Below, in pieces: positions 41,749 through 56,732 of a DNA stretch of 64,000 nt. The stretch comes from Cellulosimicrobium cellulans. Its GTDB lineage: Bacteria; Actinomycetota; Actinomycetes; Actinomycetales; Cellulomonadaceae. Where the stretch lies: positions 1,860,001-1,924,000 of the forward strand of contig NZ_JAFBCN010000001.1 of assembly GCF_016907755.1 (NCBI RefSeq). The letters run 5' to 3'. Position numbers and translations under genes: made by a program. The notes under the pieces were generated by a model that searched no databases, had not been told where the DNA came from, and worked only from the letters and a program-made list of their open reading frames with translations. The stretch's first letter is position 1, and each line of letters starts with the position of its first letter.

Positions 41749-42297
41749 GTGAGCGAGCAGACCGCAGCCCCGATCCCGGCCGAGCAGCTCGTCCCCGCCG
41801 ACGCGCACGTGCTCGGCAACCCGGACGCGCCCGTGACGATCGTCGAGTTCGGCGACCTCGAGTGCCCGTACTGCGCGGCCGCCGCACCCGTGCTGCGGCA
41901 GGTCGTCGAGTCGTCGGGCGGTCAGGTGCGCCTCGTGTTCCGGCACTTCCCGCTCTTCGAGATCCACCCCCACGCGCTCTCCGCGGCGCTCGCGGTCGAG
42001 GCAGCGGCGGTGCAGGGGCGGTTCTGGGAGATGCAGGCCGCGCTGTTCGAGCACCAGGACCAGCTCGGCGAGGCCGGCCTCGCCGACCGCGCCGAGGAGC
42101 TCGGCCTCGACGGCGCGTCCGTCGTGGGGGACGCCGCGCAGCAGCACGCCGCGCCCGTGCAGCGCGACTACGCGGACGCCCTCGCCGCGGGCGTCCAGGG
42201 CACCCCGACGCTCTTCGTCAACGGCGTCCGCTACCGCGGCCGCGTCACCGCCGACGGCCTCCGCGCCGCGATCGACGCCGCCACCGCGCCGAGATAG
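41749..42297 (+). CDS. DsbA-family thioredoxin-fold oxidoreductase
   Basis: A 182-residue protein with ADAHVLGNPDAPVTIVEFGDLECPYC, the DsbA-type active site CPYC. VFRHFPLFEIHPHALSAALAVEAAAVQGRFWEMQAALF and a cis-Pro loop GVQGTPTLFVNG follow. No signal peptide is visible, so it is probably cytoplasmic. The same domain is often fused to the C-terminus of NhaA antiporters in actinobacteria, and a separate nhaA lies 950 bp downstream. The start GTG 41749 is preferred over ATG 41737 because CATGCT stands seven bases before it. The stop codon lies inside a 21-bp repeat unit. Confidence 0.85.
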   Translation: MSEQTAAPIPAEQLVPADAHVLGNPDAPVTIVEFGDLECPYCAAAAPVLRQVVESSGGQVRLVFRHFPLFEIHPHALSAALAVEAAAVQGRFWEMQAALFEHQDQLGEAGLADRAEELGLDGASVVGDAAQQHAAPVQRDYADALAAGVQGTPTLFVNGVRYRGRVTADGLRAAIDAATAPR

Positions 42298-42329
42298 AAC
42301 CCTGGTCACCCGAGGTAGAACCGTGGTTC
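42287..42329 (-). repeat. Two-unit 21/22-bp tandem repeat, minus orientation
   Basis: Read on the minus strand: 42308-42329 (22 bp) and 42287-42307 (21 bp). Each matches the unit that begins GACC and ends CTACCTCGG(C/G). The first unit in plus order covers the stop codon (TAG, 42295-42297) of the DsbA-like gene. The rest of the gap to 42465 holds a leaderless -10 and no gene. Confidence 0.75.
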
Positions 42330-42452
42330 ATGACCGGGTCGGCCCGACGCTCGGACCCAGTCTCGGGCGATCCGGCCGCTGGCGGCGGCCGAACATCTCG
42401 GGCGGTGACCCGGACGCGTGAGACCGGCGAGCCCGCCCGGCGGGGCTGCGCC

Positions 42453-42458
42453 TACGCT
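42453..42458 (+). promoter_or_regulatory. -10 element TACGCT of a leaderless start
   Basis: TACGCT, seven bases, then GTG 42466. It fixes the start of the PurN-like gene. Confidence 0.55.
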
Positions 42459-42465
42459 GACGCTC

Positions 42466-43137
42466 GTGACCTCTGCCGCGCCGCTCACCCCCGGAACTGC
42501 CGCGACGTCCGCCGAGAGGCCTGCTCGCCGTCGTCCACGCCTCGCGATCGTCGGGTCGGGGGCTGGCAGCACCGCAGCGGCGATCCTCGCCGCCGTCCGC
42601 GCGGGGGACCTGCCCGTCGACGTGGGCGTCGTCGTCGGGAACAACAGCGGTGCGGGCGTCTTCGAGGTGGCCCGCGCGCACGGTGTTCCGACCGCGCACC
42701 TCAGCCGGGTCACGCACCCCGACCCGGACGCGCTGGACGCAGCGTTCCTCGCGACGCTGTCCGAGCATGGGGCCGACCTCGTCGTGCTCGCCGGCTACAT
42801 GCGCCGACTCGGCCCGCGCGTGCTCGCGGCGTACACGGGCCGGGTGCTCAACACGCATCCCGCGCTGCTGCCGGCGTACGGCGGTCACGGGATGTACGGC
42901 GACCGCGTGCACGCGGCCGTACTGGCCGACGGCGTCGCCACCACGGGCGCGAGCGTCCACCTGGTCACGGCGGACTACGACGAGGGGCCCGTCGTCGCGC
43001 AGGTGTCGGTCCCGATCGAGCCGGGGGACGACGTCGACTCCTTGCGTGACCGGGTCCAGGCCGCGGAGAAGCAGCTGCTCGTGGACCACCTGCGCGAGGC
43101 GTGCAGTGCGACAGATCGCGAGCGCTCGCCGTCCTGA
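42466..43137 (+). CDS. PurN-like formyltransferase (GART family)
   Basis: A 223-residue protein of the glycinamide ribonucleotide transformylase fold. It has VVLAGYMRRLGPRVLAAYTGRVLNTHPALLPAYGGHGMYG with the catalytic Asn and His, and TTGASVHLVTADYDEGPVVAQ with the catalytic Asp. The usual N-terminal GxGSNLQA phosphate loop reads VGSGAGSTAAAIL, a clear deviation. It normally transfers a formyl group from 10-formyl-THF in purine synthesis; the altered loop leaves room for another substrate. It is not next to purH, its usual partner, but is 2 kb from purine salvage genes. Four degenerate repeat units follow the stop. Confidence 0.8.
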   Translation: MTSAAPLTPGTAATSAERPARRRPRLAIVGSGAGSTAAAILAAVRAGDLPVDVGVVVGNNSGAGVFEVARAHGVPTAHLSRVTHPDPDALDAAFLATLSEHGADLVVLAGYMRRLGPRVLAAYTGRVLNTHPALLPAYGGHGMYGDRVHAAVLADGVATTGASVHLVTADYDEGPVVAQVSVPIEPGDDVDSLRDRVQAAEKQLLVDHLREACSATDRERSPS

Positions 43138-43152
43138 TCGCGGTTCTCAGCG

Positions 43153-43237
43153 GGACGGGGTTCTACCTCGCGCAACCCGCGGGTCTACTTCGGCGTACCA
43201 CGGCTCGACCTCGGGGGACCGGGGTTTTGCCTCGGCG
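43153..43237 (+). repeat. Four-unit degenerate 21-bp tandem repeat
   Basis: Units at 43153-43173, 43174-43195 (22 bp), 43196-43216 and 43217-43237. They carry variants of GGTTCTACCTCGGCG (TTCTACCTCGCGC, GTCTACTTCGGCG, CTCGACCTCGGGG, TTTTGCCTCGGCG). The array fills the gap between convergent purN-like and nhaA genes, 13 bases before the nhaA stop. Confidence 0.75.
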
Positions 43238-43249
43238 GCCTCAGGGCGC

Positions 43250-44665
43250 TCACGTCGTCGCCGGTGCGCGCCAGGGGAGGGGCGGGAGCTCGGGCGGGGG
43301 GCCGTCGGCGCCGGGGGAGCACAGGGGCCAGCGCTCGCCGACGAACCGGAGGGCGAGGGAGCCGAGCACGGCGGCGACGAGCGAGCCGGCGAGGATGCCG
43401 ATCTTGGCCTGCTCGATGAGCACCTCGTCGTCGAACGCGAGCTCGGCGATGAAGAGCGAGATGGTGAAGCCGATGCCGGCGAGGATCGCGCCGCCGAGCA
43501 GGTGGGAGTAGCGCACCCTGCCCGGGAGGTCGCCGAGCCCGAGGCGCAGGGCGAGCGTCGCGGCGCCGAAGATGCCGACGGCGTTGCCCACGACGAGCGC
43601 GACGGCGACGCCGATGGTCACGGGCGACGTCGCGGCCACCCGCAGCGACTCCGCGTCGAGGCGCACCCCGGCGTTCGCCAGCCCGAAGACCGGCACGACG
43701 ACGTACGCGCTCCACGGGTGCAGGACGCGCTGGAGGCGCTCGCTCGTGGGCACGGCCGCGCGCGCGGCGAGCTCGGTGAGGTGCTCGCGTTCCGCCGTCG
43801 TCTCCTGGGCGAGGCGTTTGGCGTACTTCGGCACGACGGCGACGTCCACGGGCCGCGACGAGCGGGACGGGACGAGCAGCCCCACGAGGACGCCGGCGAG
43901 CGTCGCGTGGACGCCGGACGCGTAGACCGCGCCCCACAGCGCGATCCCGACCAGGACGTACGGCGCCAGACGCCACACGCCGAGCCACCGCAGCGCGAGG
44001 ATGACGACGACGAGCACGGCGGCGACGAGGAGCCCCGGGAGCCACAGGTCGTCGGTGTAGAAGAGCGCCATGACGGTGATGGCGCCGATGTCGTCCACGA
44101 CGGCGAGCGTGAGGAGGAAGAGCCGGAGCTGGTCCGGGCAGCGCGGGCCGAACAGGGCGAGGATCCCCACGAGGAACGCCGTGTCGGTCGACATGACGAT
44201 GCCCCACCCGTGCTGCGCGGGCGACCCGGCGTTGAACGCGACGTAGATGAGCGCCGGCACGGCGAGCCCGCCGAGCGCGCCGAGCGCGGGCACCGCGACG
44301 GTCCGGCGGTTGCGGAGCTCGCCGCTCGTCACCTCGCGGTTGATCTCGAGCCCGATGACGAGGAAGAACACGGCCATCGCGGCGTCGTTGACCCAGTGGT
44401 GCAGGTCCATCTCGAACGACCACGGCCCGACGTGCCAGCCGGCCGTCGCGGACCACAGGTCGTCGTAGGCGCCCGACCAGGCGGAGTTGGCCCACACGAG
44501 CGCGACGACCGTCGCGGCGAGCAGCAGCACCGCGCCGCCGGCCTCGGTGGCGAGGAACGAGCGCAGGGAGGGGGCGACGGGGCGGAGCTGGAAGCGCAGC
44601 GGGGGGCCGGGGCGCGCGGGGACGCGGACGACCGGGAACGACGACGGCGGAGCGGGCTCGGTCAC
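43250..44665 (-). CDS. nhaA: Na+/H+ antiporter NhaA
   Basis: A 471-residue protein with about 11 membrane helices. The ion-binding motif is LLTLAVVDDIGAITVMALFY with the Asp-Asp pair. AMAVFFLVIGLEINREVTSGEL and GIGFTISLFIAELAF are also typical. It exchanges sodium for protons across the cytoplasmic membrane. The C-terminus ends soon after the last helix; the thioredoxin domain fused to many actinobacterial NhaA proteins is missing, and a DsbA-like protein is encoded separately upstream. GTG 44665 was chosen because homology starts nearby and the residues before it look non-coding. Confidence 0.92.
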   Translation of the reverse strand: MTEPAPPSSFPVVRVPARPGPPLRFQLRPVAPSLRSFLATEAGGAVLLLAATVVALVWANSAWSGAYDDLWSATAGWHVGPWSFEMDLHHWVNDAAMAVFFLVIGLEINREVTSGELRNRRTVAVPALGALGGLAVPALIYVAFNAGSPAQHGWGIVMSTDTAFLVGILALFGPRCPDQLRLFLLTLAVVDDIGAITVMALFYTDDLWLPGLLVAAVLVVVILALRWLGVWRLAPYVLVGIALWGAVYASGVHATLAGVLVGLLVPSRSSRPVDVAVVPKYAKRLAQETTAEREHLTELAARAAVPTSERLQRVLHPWSAYVVVPVFGLANAGVRLDAESLRVAATSPVTIGVAVALVVGNAVGIFGAATLALRLGLGDLPGRVRYSHLLGGAILAGIGFTISLFIAELAFDDEVLIEQAKIGILAGSLVAAVLGSLALRFVGERWPLCSPGADGPPPELPPLPWRAPATT

Positions 44666-52849: not shown

Positions 52850-53715
52850 GCACCGTCACCGACCTCGTCCCGACCGTCGACCCCGGCGACTGGCGCGAGG
52901 GCGACGCCTGGCTCGCGGGCGGCACCGTCCTGTTCTCGTACGGCAGCCAGACGCTGCGGCGCCTGCTCGACGTGACGAGCGCCGGCTGGCCCGCGCTCAG
53001 CGTGACCGGCGACGGTCTCGAGATCGCCGCGACCTGCACGGTCGCCGAGCTGTGGGCCTTCGAGGAGAGCGCGCAGGCCGCGCCGGTGCGCGAGCGGTGG
53101 CGAGCGCTGGACCTCGTGCGCCCGTGCTGCGACAGCTTCGTCGCGTCCTTCAAGATCTGGAACACGTCGACCGTTGGCGGCAACGTCTGCACGTCCCTGC
53201 CGGCGGGGCCGATGATCTCCCTCACCGCCGCGCTCGACGGCGTCGCGGAGGTCTGGGGACCGGGCGGCACCCGCCGGGAGCAGCCGGTCGCCGAGCTCGT
53301 CACCGGAGAGCTGGCCAACACGCTCGCGCCCGGCGAGCTCCTGCGCGCGATCCGCGTGCCCGACCACGCGCTGCGCGCGCGCACCGCGTTCCGGCGCCTG
53401 TCGCTGTCCAACCTCGGGCGCTCGGGGGTGCTGCTGATCGGCCGGGTCGACCCGCCCGACGCCGGAGGGGGCCTCGTCCTCACGGTGACCGCCTCGACGC
53501 GTCGGCCCGTGCAGCTCCGGTTCGCCGCGGACGCGCTCCCGACGGCGGTCGAGCTCGCCGCCGCGCTCGACGTCGCGATCCCCGTCGACCTCTACCACGA
53601 CGACATCCACGGGCTGCCCGCGTGGCGCCGGGACATGACCTACCGCCTCGGCGAGGAGATCCGCTCCGAGCTCCTCTCCGGGCTCGCGGACGGCACGGAC
53701 GGAGACCCCCGATGA
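52840..53715 (+). CDS. FAD-binding subunit of xanthine dehydrogenase-type hydroxylase
   Basis: A 291-residue CoxM/XdhB-type protein. FAD-binding motifs are [13 protein letters not shown] (usually AGGT) and [27 protein letters not shown], the TxGGN block. The C-terminal CO dehydrogenase flavoprotein domain is shorter than usual. It passes electrons from the Fe-S clusters to NAD+ or another acceptor. It overlaps xdhC by 10 bp and the fused subunit by four (ATGA), so the three products are made together. The ribosome site is GAGGAGG. Confidence 0.88.
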
Positions 53716-56700
53716 CCGCGATCGACCCCCGCCCGATCCCGCCCGTCTCGATCGACGGTCGCACCGCCCAGGCCGTGCCGCGCGCGGGCCAGTGCCTGCG
53801 CACGTACCTGCGCGAGCAGGGTGCGCTCGGAGTCAAGAAGGGCTGCGACGGAGGCGACTGCGGCGCGTGCACGGTCCACGTCGACGGCGTCCCCGTGCAC
53901 TCGTGCGTCTACCCGGCGCGGCGCGCGGCGGGCCACGAGGTGACGACCGTCCAGGGCCTCGCCGCGACGGCGTGCCACGGCAGCGGTGCCGGGGACGAGG
54001 AGACCGCGGCGTGCGACCACGACCCGCACGGTCCCCAGGAGACGCTGCACCCCGTGCAGCAGCAGTTCCTGGACGCGCAGGGCTTCCAGTGCGGGTTCTG
54101 CACGGCGGGGATGATCATGACCGCCGCGACGTTCGACGACGCGCAGCGCGCGAACCTGCCGCGCAACCTCAAGGGGAACCTGTGCCGCTGCACCGGCTAC
54201 CGCGCGATCGAGGACGCCGTCCTCGGCCGGGGCGACACGACGGGCACCGCCCCGGGCACGGGGGAGCGCGCGTCGTCGGGCGGCGACCACGCCTCTACCT
54301 GGGGTGACCACGCCTCTACCTCGGCGGACCAGGGCTCTACCTCGCGTGACCAGGGCTCTACCTCGGCGGGCCGGGGTTCTCCCTCGGCGGTCGGGCGGGA
54401 CGTGCCCGCGCCGGCCGGGCGCGGGGTCGTCACCGGGACGGTGCGGTACACGCTCGACGTCGACCCCGCCGACTACCCGGGGCTGCTCCACCTCAAGCTC
54501 GTCCGGTCGCCGCACGCGCACGCGCGGGTCGTCGCGATCGACGCGTCCGCGGCGCTCGCCGTGCCGGGCGTGCACGCCGTGCTCACGCACGAGGACGCGC
54601 CGGCGACGCGGTTCTCGACCGCGCAGCACGAGCTGTTCACCGACGACCCCGACGACACGCGCGTCCTCGACGACGTCGTGCGGCACGTCGGGCAGCGCGT
54701 CGCGGCCGTCGTCGCGGACACGGTCGCGGCGGCCGAGGAGGGCGTGCGGCAGGTGCGCGTCGAGTACGAGGTGCTGCCCGCCGTCGTCGACCCGGAGGAG
54801 GCGATGGCGCCCGGCGCGCCGCTCGTCCACCCCGGGCTCGACCCTGCCGAGGCGCGCGTCTCGCGGCCCGAGGCGAACGTCGTCGCCGAGGTGCACAGCG
54901 AGCTCGGCGACGTCGAGCGCGGTCTGGCGGAGGCCGACGTCGTGCACGAGGCCACGTACCGCACGCACCGCGTGCAGCACGCCGCGCTGGAGACCCACTG
55001 CGCCATCGCGTCGCTCGACGACGACGGCCGGCTCGTTGTGCGGTCGTCGACGCAGGTGCCGTTCCTCGCGCGGCGCCACCTCGCGCGCGTGCTCGACCTC
55101 GACCCGGAGCGCGTGCGCGTGCACTGCGAGCGCGTGGGCGGCGGGTTCGGCGGCAAGCAGGAGGTGCTCACCGAGGACGTCGCGGCGCTCGCGACGCTGC
55201 GGCTCGGGCGCCCGGTCCAGCTCGAGCTCACGCGCACCGAGCAGTTCGTGGGCACGACGACGCGCCACCCCTTCCGCATCCGGGTGCGCGCGGGCGCGCG
55301 TCGCGACGGGACGCTCACCGCGCTGCACCTGGACGTGCTCAGCAACACCGGCGCGTACGGCAACCACGGCCCCGGGGTCATGTTCCACGGGTGCGGCGAG
55401 TCGCTCGCGGTGTACCGGTGCGAGAACAAGAAGGTCGACGCGCACTGCGTCTACACGAACACCGTGCCCGCGGGCGCGTTCCGCGGCTACGGGCTGTCGC
55501 AGATGATCTTCGCCGTCGAGTCGGCGGTCGACGAGCTCGCGCAGCAGCTCGGGATGGACCCGCTCGAGCTGCGGCGGCGCAACGTCGTGCTCGACGGCGA
55601 CCCCATGCTCTCCACGCACCCGACGCCGGAGGAGGACGTGCTCTACGGCAGCTACGGACTCGACCAGTGCCTCGATCTCGCCGCCGACGCGCTCGCGCGC
55701 GGGCGGGCTCGCGACGTCGCCGCGTACGGGGCGGGCGTCGGGTCGGGCGCTGACGCCCTGCCGGACCTCGGTCCGGAGTGGGGCGTCGGCGAGGGCACCG
55801 CGCTCTCCATGATCGACACCGTGCCGCCGCGGGGCCACTACTCCCACGCACGCGTGCGGCTGCGGGCCGACGGCGTGGTCGAGGCCGAGGTCGGGACCGC
55901 CGAGTTCGGCAACGGCACGACGACGGTCCACGCCCAGCTCGTCGCGAGCGCGCTCGCGCAGGACGCCGGGGACGTCGTCGTGCGGCAGTCGGACACCGAC
56001 CTGCTCGAGCACGACACCGGCGCGTTCGGGTCCACGGGCACCGTCGTCGCGGGCAAGGCGTCGCTCGCCGCCGCGCAGGATCTCGCGGAGGCGGTGCTCA
56101 AGGTCGCGGCCGGGATGGCCGGCGCGGCGCCGGGGGACTGCCGGCTCGTGCCCGGGGGCGTCGACTGCACGGGAAGTGATCGAGCGACGACCGTCCTGCC
56201 GCTGGCCGACGTCGCGCGCGCCGCCACCGACGCCGGGATCGAGCTCGTCGCCGAGGGGCGCTGGGGCGGCACCCCGCGCTCCGTCGCGTTCAACGTGCAC
56301 GGGTTCCGCGTCGCGGTCCACCACGGCACGGGAGAGATCCGCATCCTGCAGTCCGTCCAGGCCGCCGACGCCGGCGAGGTCGTCAACCCCCGGCAGTGCC
56401 GCGGCCAGGTCGAGGGTGGCATCGCGCAGGCTCTCGGCGCGGCGCTCTACGAGAACGTGATCGTCGACGACACCGGTCGCGTCACGACCGACATCTTCCG
56501 CCAGTACCACCTGCCGACCTTCGCGGACACCCCGCGCAGCGAGGTCTACTTCGCGCGGACGTCGGACACGGTCGGGCCCCTGGGGGCGAAGTCGATGAGC
56601 GAGAGCCCGTTCAACCCGGTGGCCCCCGCACTCGCCAACGCGATCCGCGCCGCGACGGGCGTGCGGTTCACCGAGCTCCCGCTCGCCCGGGACCGGATCT

Positions 56701-56732
56701 ACCTGGCCATCAAGGCCGCCGACGCCCGCTGA
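53712..56732 (+). CDS. Fused 2Fe-2S and molybdopterin subunit of xanthine dehydrogenase-type enzyme
   Basis: A 1006-residue fusion. Residues ~10-170 hold two 2Fe-2S clusters: C45, C50, C53, C65 ([17 protein letters not shown]), then C127, C130, C158, C160. Residues 192-226 are five in-frame heptapeptide repeats. The molybdopterin-binding chain fills residues ~235-1006, with [20 protein letters not shown] near 476, [19 protein letters not shown] and [24 protein letters not shown]. The catalytic Glu is expected in the last motif (SES where many have GE). The enzyme hydroxylates purines or other N-heterocycles; the gene context favours hypoxanthine/xanthine. The separate FAD gene with a fused Fe-S/Mo chain is an unusual split. 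ATG 53712 follows GGAG. Confidence 0.88.
54285..54389 (+). repeat. Five 21-bp tandem repeats inside the xanthine dehydrogenase-like gene
   Basis: Units start at 54285, 54306, 54327, 54348 and 54369, each exactly 21 bp. The consensus begins GACCA and ends CTCTACCTCGGCG. In the reading frame each gives seven residues of the form D(H/Q)(A/G)STSA. The same repeat occurs outside genes at 42287-42329 and 43153-43237. Confidence 0.92.

Follow-up and report, generated by a model that had tools for sequence, protein, structure and literature searches.

How does a repeat that is otherwise found between genes come to be read, in frame, as part of an enzyme? This question is raised by a window of 64,000 nucleotides from Cellulosimicrobium cellulans, the whole stretch analysed here, which corresponds to positions 1860001-1924000 of a complete genome of 4,788,922 bp (contig NZ_JAFBCN010000001.1; coordinates are those of the window unless the genome is named). 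Five 21-bp units lie there on the plus strand, at 54285..54389, within an open reading frame (ORF; 53712..56732, plus strand) for a fused 2Fe-2S and molybdopterin-binding protein of 1006 amino acids that belongs to the xanthine dehydrogenase (XDH) family, and the same unit forms arrays outside genes. Our findings indicate that the unit is probably an interspersed repeat of Cellulosimicrobium that works like the GTAG-tagged repetitive extragenic palindromes (REPs), and that some of its copies stand in protein linkers.

The coding array and the protein that carries it

The array obtained a Tandem Repeats Finder score of 120 at period 21, and its units encode 35 residues (192-226) as heptads of the type D(H/Q)(A/G)STSA. 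Pfam recognised Fer2, Fer2_2, Ald_Xan_dh_C, MoCoBD_1 and MoCoBD_2 in one chain. Because residues 192-226 fall between the end of Fer2_2 (residue 170) and the start of Ald_Xan_dh_C (residue 241), the array lies in the inter-domain linker, as the first-pass annotation of this DNA had stated when it placed five in-frame units between the 2Fe-2S and molybdopterin domains. An AlphaFold model of the protein (mean predicted local distance difference test score of 57) draws residues 171-243 as coil with very low confidence, which is too weak to count as evidence. The likely start of the gene is the ATG at 53712; this codon overlaps the TGA of an upstream gene resembling a flavin adenine dinucleotide subunit (ATGA), an arrangement that suggests translational coupling.

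The annotation had also proposed that the repeat entered the junction left by the fusion of two subunits, and this part of it was not sustained. The Fe-S and molybdopterin parts are joined in one chain in all 80 homologues compared (the best 80 of 526, a set biased to full-length matches), out to Arthrobacter. Their linkers differ in length and most lack the 21-bp repeat by eye; units were scanned in 15 of the 80 loci, the other linkers being read by eye as peptide. Of the two arrangements envisaged for relatives, fused chains without the repeat were thus found in most of this set and separate chains in none. Since the homologues are fused and most lack the repeat, the fusion is older than the repeat. 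Nor is it the cause of the array, for the same heptads recur as arrays in five further, unrelated proteins. The aldehyde oxidoreductases 1sij and 1dgj, relatives with solved structures, are one-chain proteins as well.

An orthologue of the XDH linker was obtained from 14 of the 17 genus genomes, all except G001, G003 and G014. Heptads are present in 12 of these 14, the source genome included, in numbers from 2 to 5 units, and they are absent from two (G008 and G009), so that copy number at this gene is not fixed. The annotation had anticipated that a 21-bp unit would let the linker change length without frameshift, and the unit number does vary between species. In G015 the linker contains two inverted and two direct units, the sole genome with both orientations there, and the array is followed by some additional residues in G002, G004, G005 and G010. 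A fused protein 91% identical to this one, heptads included, is present in a record with the title Sphaerisporangium cinnabarinum ATCC 31213, which seems to be a Cellulosimicrobium genome that bears a different name.

Abundance of the unit in the genome, the genus and the family

Read in the sense of the upstream gene, the unit is CGAGGTAGARCCNNGGTC; it has a GTAG motif at its end and a CGAG-GTAG core in the sequences, and degenerate copies are also present. The position weight matrix used to score units was anchored on this core, so conservation of the core is not independent evidence; it was trained on the unit type of the source genome, and units of other types or degenerate ones may escape it. 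In the window, the unit consensus with up to three mismatches gave 8 matches, compared with 0.04 on average and never more than 2 in 100 dinucleotide shuffles. In the whole genome (4.79 Mb), the exact core GGYTCTACCTCG occurs 53 + 46 = 99 times against 0 + 4 for the reversed pattern, and unit pairs at 21-bp spacing with up to two mismatches 57 + 52 times against 0 + 1; these 109 pair matches are the full count, with positions given for the first ones listed. Each of the 16 other genomes of the genus contains 8 to 279 exact cores. Among 221 genomes of the family, direct 21-bp pairs were found in 15 of the 17 genus genomes (6 to 224 pairs each) and in 21 of the 204 genomes outside Cellulosimicrobium (1 to 9 each), the reversed-pattern controls giving a total of 4. 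Most of the Cellulosimicrobium genomes sampled contain the 21-bp repeat in abundance, and in other members of the family it is rare. Unit number is high in G004 and G006 and close to zero in G003 and G014. These counts go well beyond the XDH locus and beyond chance, and they bear out the view of a dispersed genomic repeat of variable copy number that also lies in this linker. Among plasmid records, from which those near the source genome were possibly excluded, the linker stretch had no match.

A second unit type, GGTACTACCTCG, is present in 28 copies in G008, 59 in G015, 100 in G012 and 45 in G013, and in 0 to 8 copies in the remaining 13 genus genomes. A tree built from the two flanks of one site in 15 genomes recovers a clade of nine genomes (support 100/98) that excludes these four second-type genomes as well as the array-free G003 and G014; it does not settle whether the four, all outside the clade of nine, form a clade themselves. 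Unit type thus broadly follows descent. Outside the genus, G026 contains 50 exact copies of the core, yet a single direct 21-bp pair, and these copies are perhaps a non-tandem relative of the repeat family. In another genus of the family (g21; G036 and G170-G186), direct 21-bp pairs, 1 to 9 each, occur in 12 of the 18 listed genomes; either a coincidence of coding sequence or a second lineage that possesses the repeat may account for them.

Architecture and position outside genes

The survey of the source genome covered 74 stretches (292 kb) that were picked for holding matches and are therefore not a random sample. Units scoring at least 10 numbered 288, against 14 in the reversed sequence. 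Same-strand neighbours are spaced by 21 bp in 85 and by 20 bp in 29 of 118 cases, and neighbouring arrays face outward ('-+') in 44 cases, inward ('+-') in 3 and along the same strand in 4. Two recurrent geometries were recognised. One is a compact palindrome of 75 bp, each arm of which has two units spaced by 20 bp; the other consists of 21-bp arrays of 2 to 6 units, with a few bp or about 200-400 bp between the arms. The wide array centres compared, that of the window excepted, contain two further repeated hairpins, I and II, which are about 83-98% alike between copies. Lying between arrays, hairpin I measures about 90 bp and hairpin II about 115 bp, as seen at locus L186 (genome 671737-672143) and at L184, L185, L149 and L151. 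A folding energy of -71 kcal/mol (z -12.8) was obtained for a compact palindrome, and one copy each of hairpins I and II likewise folds far better than its shuffles (z -8.1 and -6.6). Covariation between the arms of compact palindromes is weak, 6.4 of 8 linker positions pairing within a locus and 5.3 of 8 when arms are swapped (16 loci of the source genome), and for this reason strong compensatory evolution of the arms is not claimed. In Rfam, five loci (16,833 bases) gave no match at the gathering score.

Genes were called by our own codon-usage script rather than a standard annotator. Of the arrays and strong single units in the chosen stretches, 130 in total, 110 fall between genes. Convergent genes flank 52 of them, co-directional genes 54 and divergent genes 4 (raw counts, without a baseline for the classes), and at least one gene points at the array or unit in 106 of the 110. 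Inverted pairs of units that face outward and follow stop codons directly are a common form. Where a unit follows a gene in the CGAGGTAG sense (79 cases), the TAG of the first unit is the stop codon of that gene in 22, and 44 further units lie 0-30 bp behind it, which places 66 of the 79 within 30 bp of a gene end.

Two such arrays lie in the window, and the annotation had rightly recognised both as non-coding copies of the unit. Two inverted units occupy 42287..42328 (minus strand), the TAG of the first being called as the stop of an upstream gene that we read as DsbA-like, and four units, two of them weak, occupy 43153..43237 (plus strand; spacings of 22, 21 and 21 bp) as the outward-facing partner. 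The 823 bp between them include a gene at 42466..43137 (plus strand) that, from our own reading of the sequence, we take to be purN-like.

Change between species at gene ends

At this site (42282-43255), where G001 and G006 of the 17 genomes were left unresolved, no scored unit is present in 7 of the 14 relatives resolved. For G008, G012, G013 and G015 such calls combine the matrix scan with reading by eye, and the 63-bp gap in G008 may hold a degenerate unit. In the remaining seven relatives the left side holds 2 to 8 units; hairpin I is present in six of these relatives, and in four of the six hairpin II is present too. The purN-like gene was found in the source genome only, among the genomes resolved, and in its place the seven unit-carrying relatives have hairpins I/II or an array only; the gene may be cargo acquired by exchange between arrays. 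At eight other gene ends, 15 of 71 orthologous stretches from 10 relatives are without a unit, and the others show compact palindromes, extended arrays with as many as 7 units on a side, and partial or mixed forms. A site that is occupied by a palindrome in one species may carry an array in another (sites P2, P3 and P5). This pattern fits an order of events in which the inverted pair would be the older form and the arrays growths of its arms.

Coding copies in other proteins

Six internal arrays in genes of the source genome share one orientation and one frame, that of D(H/Q)(A/G)STSA. Besides the fused Fe-S/molybdopterin protein, they are found in a heavy-metal P-type ATPase (behind its HMA domain), in HemD, in a FabG-like short-chain reductase, in a NarG-like molybdopterin oxidoreductase that we take to be NarG, and in a membrane protein, presumably NnrS-like, that matches no Pfam family and carries the array in its tail. 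The other frames of the unit read as LYLGG-, LPRR-, RALV- or EPWS-type peptides or run into a stop, and the shared orientation and frame is what protein-level selection would leave, namely a stop-free, soft polar peptide. The remaining in-gene matches are single units, and compact palindromes overlap two predicted C-termini (1389378 and 4565113 in the genome).

As read from alignments, the heptads stand at the same places in the orthologous stretches of all these proteins. They occur in about 8 of 12 relatives for NarG and are widespread but variable in the P-type ATPase (16 stretches), HemD (16) and the FabG-like reductase (15). Six relatives were compared for the tail of the membrane protein: five of them have 3 to 6 heptads, and none is clear in G009. 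In G012 and G013 the second unit type appears in coding arrays, as DRGTTSA- or DPGTTSR-like heptads. Hairpin I matched 8 and hairpin II 6 of 65 coding gene stretches, against 0 for shuffled queries, and with these matches the linkers look like docking places for several repeats. Hairpins I/II were seen in the gene stretches of the P-type ATPase, HemD, the FabG-like reductase and NarG of some relatives. Exact 21-bp pairs are absent from the sister genomes G003 and G014, yet hairpin I or II is matched in their stretches for the P-type ATPase or the FabG-like reductase, so the hairpins may spread without arrays.

Discussion

The abundance of the unit, its place behind gene ends and its single frame in six unrelated proteins are most simply brought together by an interspersed repeat that works like a GTAG REP. 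We hypothesize that units multiply in place through slippage or unequal exchange, and that they would reach new sites either through transposition by some enzyme or through gene conversion between copies. In coding DNA, selection would retain a copy only if its peptide is soft, free of stops and placed in an exposed linker, and there the number of units could drift, since 21 bp make seven codons. For the paired form behind genes, a role as RNA hairpin or terminator is probable. The linker heptads in the enzymes are most likely a tolerated passenger. The flexible tether proposed by the annotation would be an alternative; two of the 14 XDH linkers lack the heptads.

It could be argued instead that the heptad is kept for its amino acids and that its match to non-coding repeats is secondary. 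The single frame in six proteins, always in linkers or a tail, agrees with such selection on the peptide, but the codons do not: TCT accounts for 36 of 97 linker serine codons against 4 of 322 in the rest of the gene examined (14 genus genomes), and for 1.2% of serine codons in genes of the source genome. Because peptide selection alone would not retain this rare codon, its retention is best read as pointing to a DNA repeat first and a peptide second. Moreover, the coding units of G012 and G013 are of the type found in the non-coding DNA of the same genomes, and the XDH linkers of G008 and G009 do without the heptad; we consider selection for the peptide a very unlikely origin of the arrays. 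Equally far-fetched, if not slightly more so, is a purely local origin, in which each array would have grown through slippage where a seed happened to lie close to a stop codon or linker, with no dispersal at all. The tandem structure is compatible with it, and the gene ends of several unit-free relatives do read CGGTAG at the same place. However, the 21-bp unit and its inverted geometry are common to dozens of unrelated sites and rare outside the genus, and empty sites are found beside complete multi-part elements (array, hairpin I, hairpin II, array).

The strict spacing of 20 or 21 bp, two helical turns, and the conserved 9-bp core could also be expected of sites for a putative DNA-binding protein, the coding copies of the unit then being accidental. 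Against this idea, which we regard as unlikely, the arrays lie at gene ends and only 4 of 110 are flanked by divergent genes, and conservation of the core is partly built into the anchor of the unit matrix. A comparable and similarly low probability is given to a true system of REP-derived palindromes (REPINs), moved by a REP-associated tyrosine transposase (RAYT) of the Y1 type that acts on GTAG-tagged palindromes. The tag, the head-head dimers, the location at 3' ends and the donation of TAG all match the description by Di Nocera et al. (2013; PMC3733652), but single units have no clear stem and tandem head-tail units dominate. The RAYT hypothesis was rejected on the profile PF01797 (RAYT/Y1 transposase), the one transposase family searched, which was negative in all 17 genus genomes (completeness of 90% or more in 15) and positive in 5 of 14 control genomes.

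This last result also weighs against the interspersed repeat that we favour, as do several other observations. The XDH linker carries direct arrays at the same place and in the same frame in 12 of 12 carriers, and one old insertion followed by local change would fit these sequences as well as repeated insertion does. Coding arrays of G015 are mostly of the first unit type though its genome is rich in the second, and homogenisation is therefore not clean. A seventh internal match of two divergent units (genome 444572-444613; L024) is read in the LYL frame; its cores are two TCTACCTCG 21 bp apart. It resembles an ordinary similarity between coding sequences and has been left out of the family. 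When empty and filled sites were compared by eye, with diverged flanks, no clear target-site duplication was seen; such a duplication, together with terminal inverted repeats, would mark a miniature inverted-repeat transposable element (MITE). The terminator role, in turn, does not easily cover unpaired arrays, because solo arrays fold little themselves: z was 0.02 and 0.63 for the two strands of the XDH array, and -1.03 and -1.95 for two solo arrays at gene ends. For the array with z -1.95, 4 of 200 shuffles fold as well, so that a weak fold is possible in some arrays.

Related systems have been described in other bacteria. As described by Di Nocera et al. (2013; PMC3733652), GTAG-tagged REPs carry the GTAG motif, form head-head dimers (some 1-5 bp apart), donate TAG as a stop and lie behind convergent or co-directional gene ends, with some copies inside ORFs and beside other repeats. 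The Cellulosimicrobium repeat shares the tag, the dimers (44 '-+' against 3 '+-'), the gene-end location, the TAG donation, the intragenic copies and the company of other repeats. It differs in that its unit lacks a clear stem of its own (a stem of at least 5 bp is the criterion for GTAG REPs), 21-bp head-tail arrays dominate and no Y1_Tnp match is found in the genus. It may therefore be said to work like a GTAG REP without being filed as one; the term actinobact does not occur in the main text of that paper. PARCEL repeats are likewise tandem, coding and variable in number, with dyad symmetry, but they have 25-residue amphipathic units in unassigned ORFs of distant taxa, and the accessible text of PMC2996958 does not describe them as gene-end repeats. 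The Rickettsia palindromic elements, as presented in part of a review (PMC10969869), are in-frame repeats of about 150 bp in unrelated metabolic genes. The present family resembles them in having one repeat in frame in six unrelated proteins and at many gene ends, and differs from them by direct 21-bp arrays of species-variable number, one shared heptad and no palindrome of about 150 bp. Bacterial interspersed mosaic elements (BIMEs), as far as the descriptions available to us go, are also composites, in which regularly spaced units of either orientation stand beside other motifs (hairpins I and II in the present case), but they alternate single REPs, whereas the order here is array, centre, array. 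Mycobacterial interspersed repetitive units are actinobacterial tandem repeats at gene junctions that overlap stops and vary in number, with units longer than 21 bp and no inverted pairs; we know of none that recur as in-frame linkers. A search confined to open-licence PMC papers found no description of the 21-bp family of Cellulosimicrobium. The repeat is a previously known sort of small intragenic and intergenic repeat in a new form.

A bolder reading can be put forward only tentatively, as we think it somewhat less probable than its contrary. According to it, a RAYT-free family captures stops as a GTAG palindrome, grows arrays and repeatedly writes D(H/Q)(A/G)STSA or DRGTTSA into proteins, its coding and non-coding copies being kept in step by ongoing exchange. 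If this were true, enzyme linkers across the proteome would evolve in concert with 'junk' DNA. The sharp question raised is what moves or homogenises a GTAG repeat when a RAYT gene is undetected. Typing of Cellulosimicrobium is another possible use of the arrays. The family offers a clean natural experiment on how a non-coding repeat becomes protein sequence: six unrelated proteins share one unit and one frame, and among sequenced relatives the heptads at these fixed places range in steps from 0 to about 6, by which the neutrality of linker length becomes testable in a NarG-like enzyme, HemD, a heavy-metal P-type ATPase and a xanthine-dehydrogenase-like enzyme.
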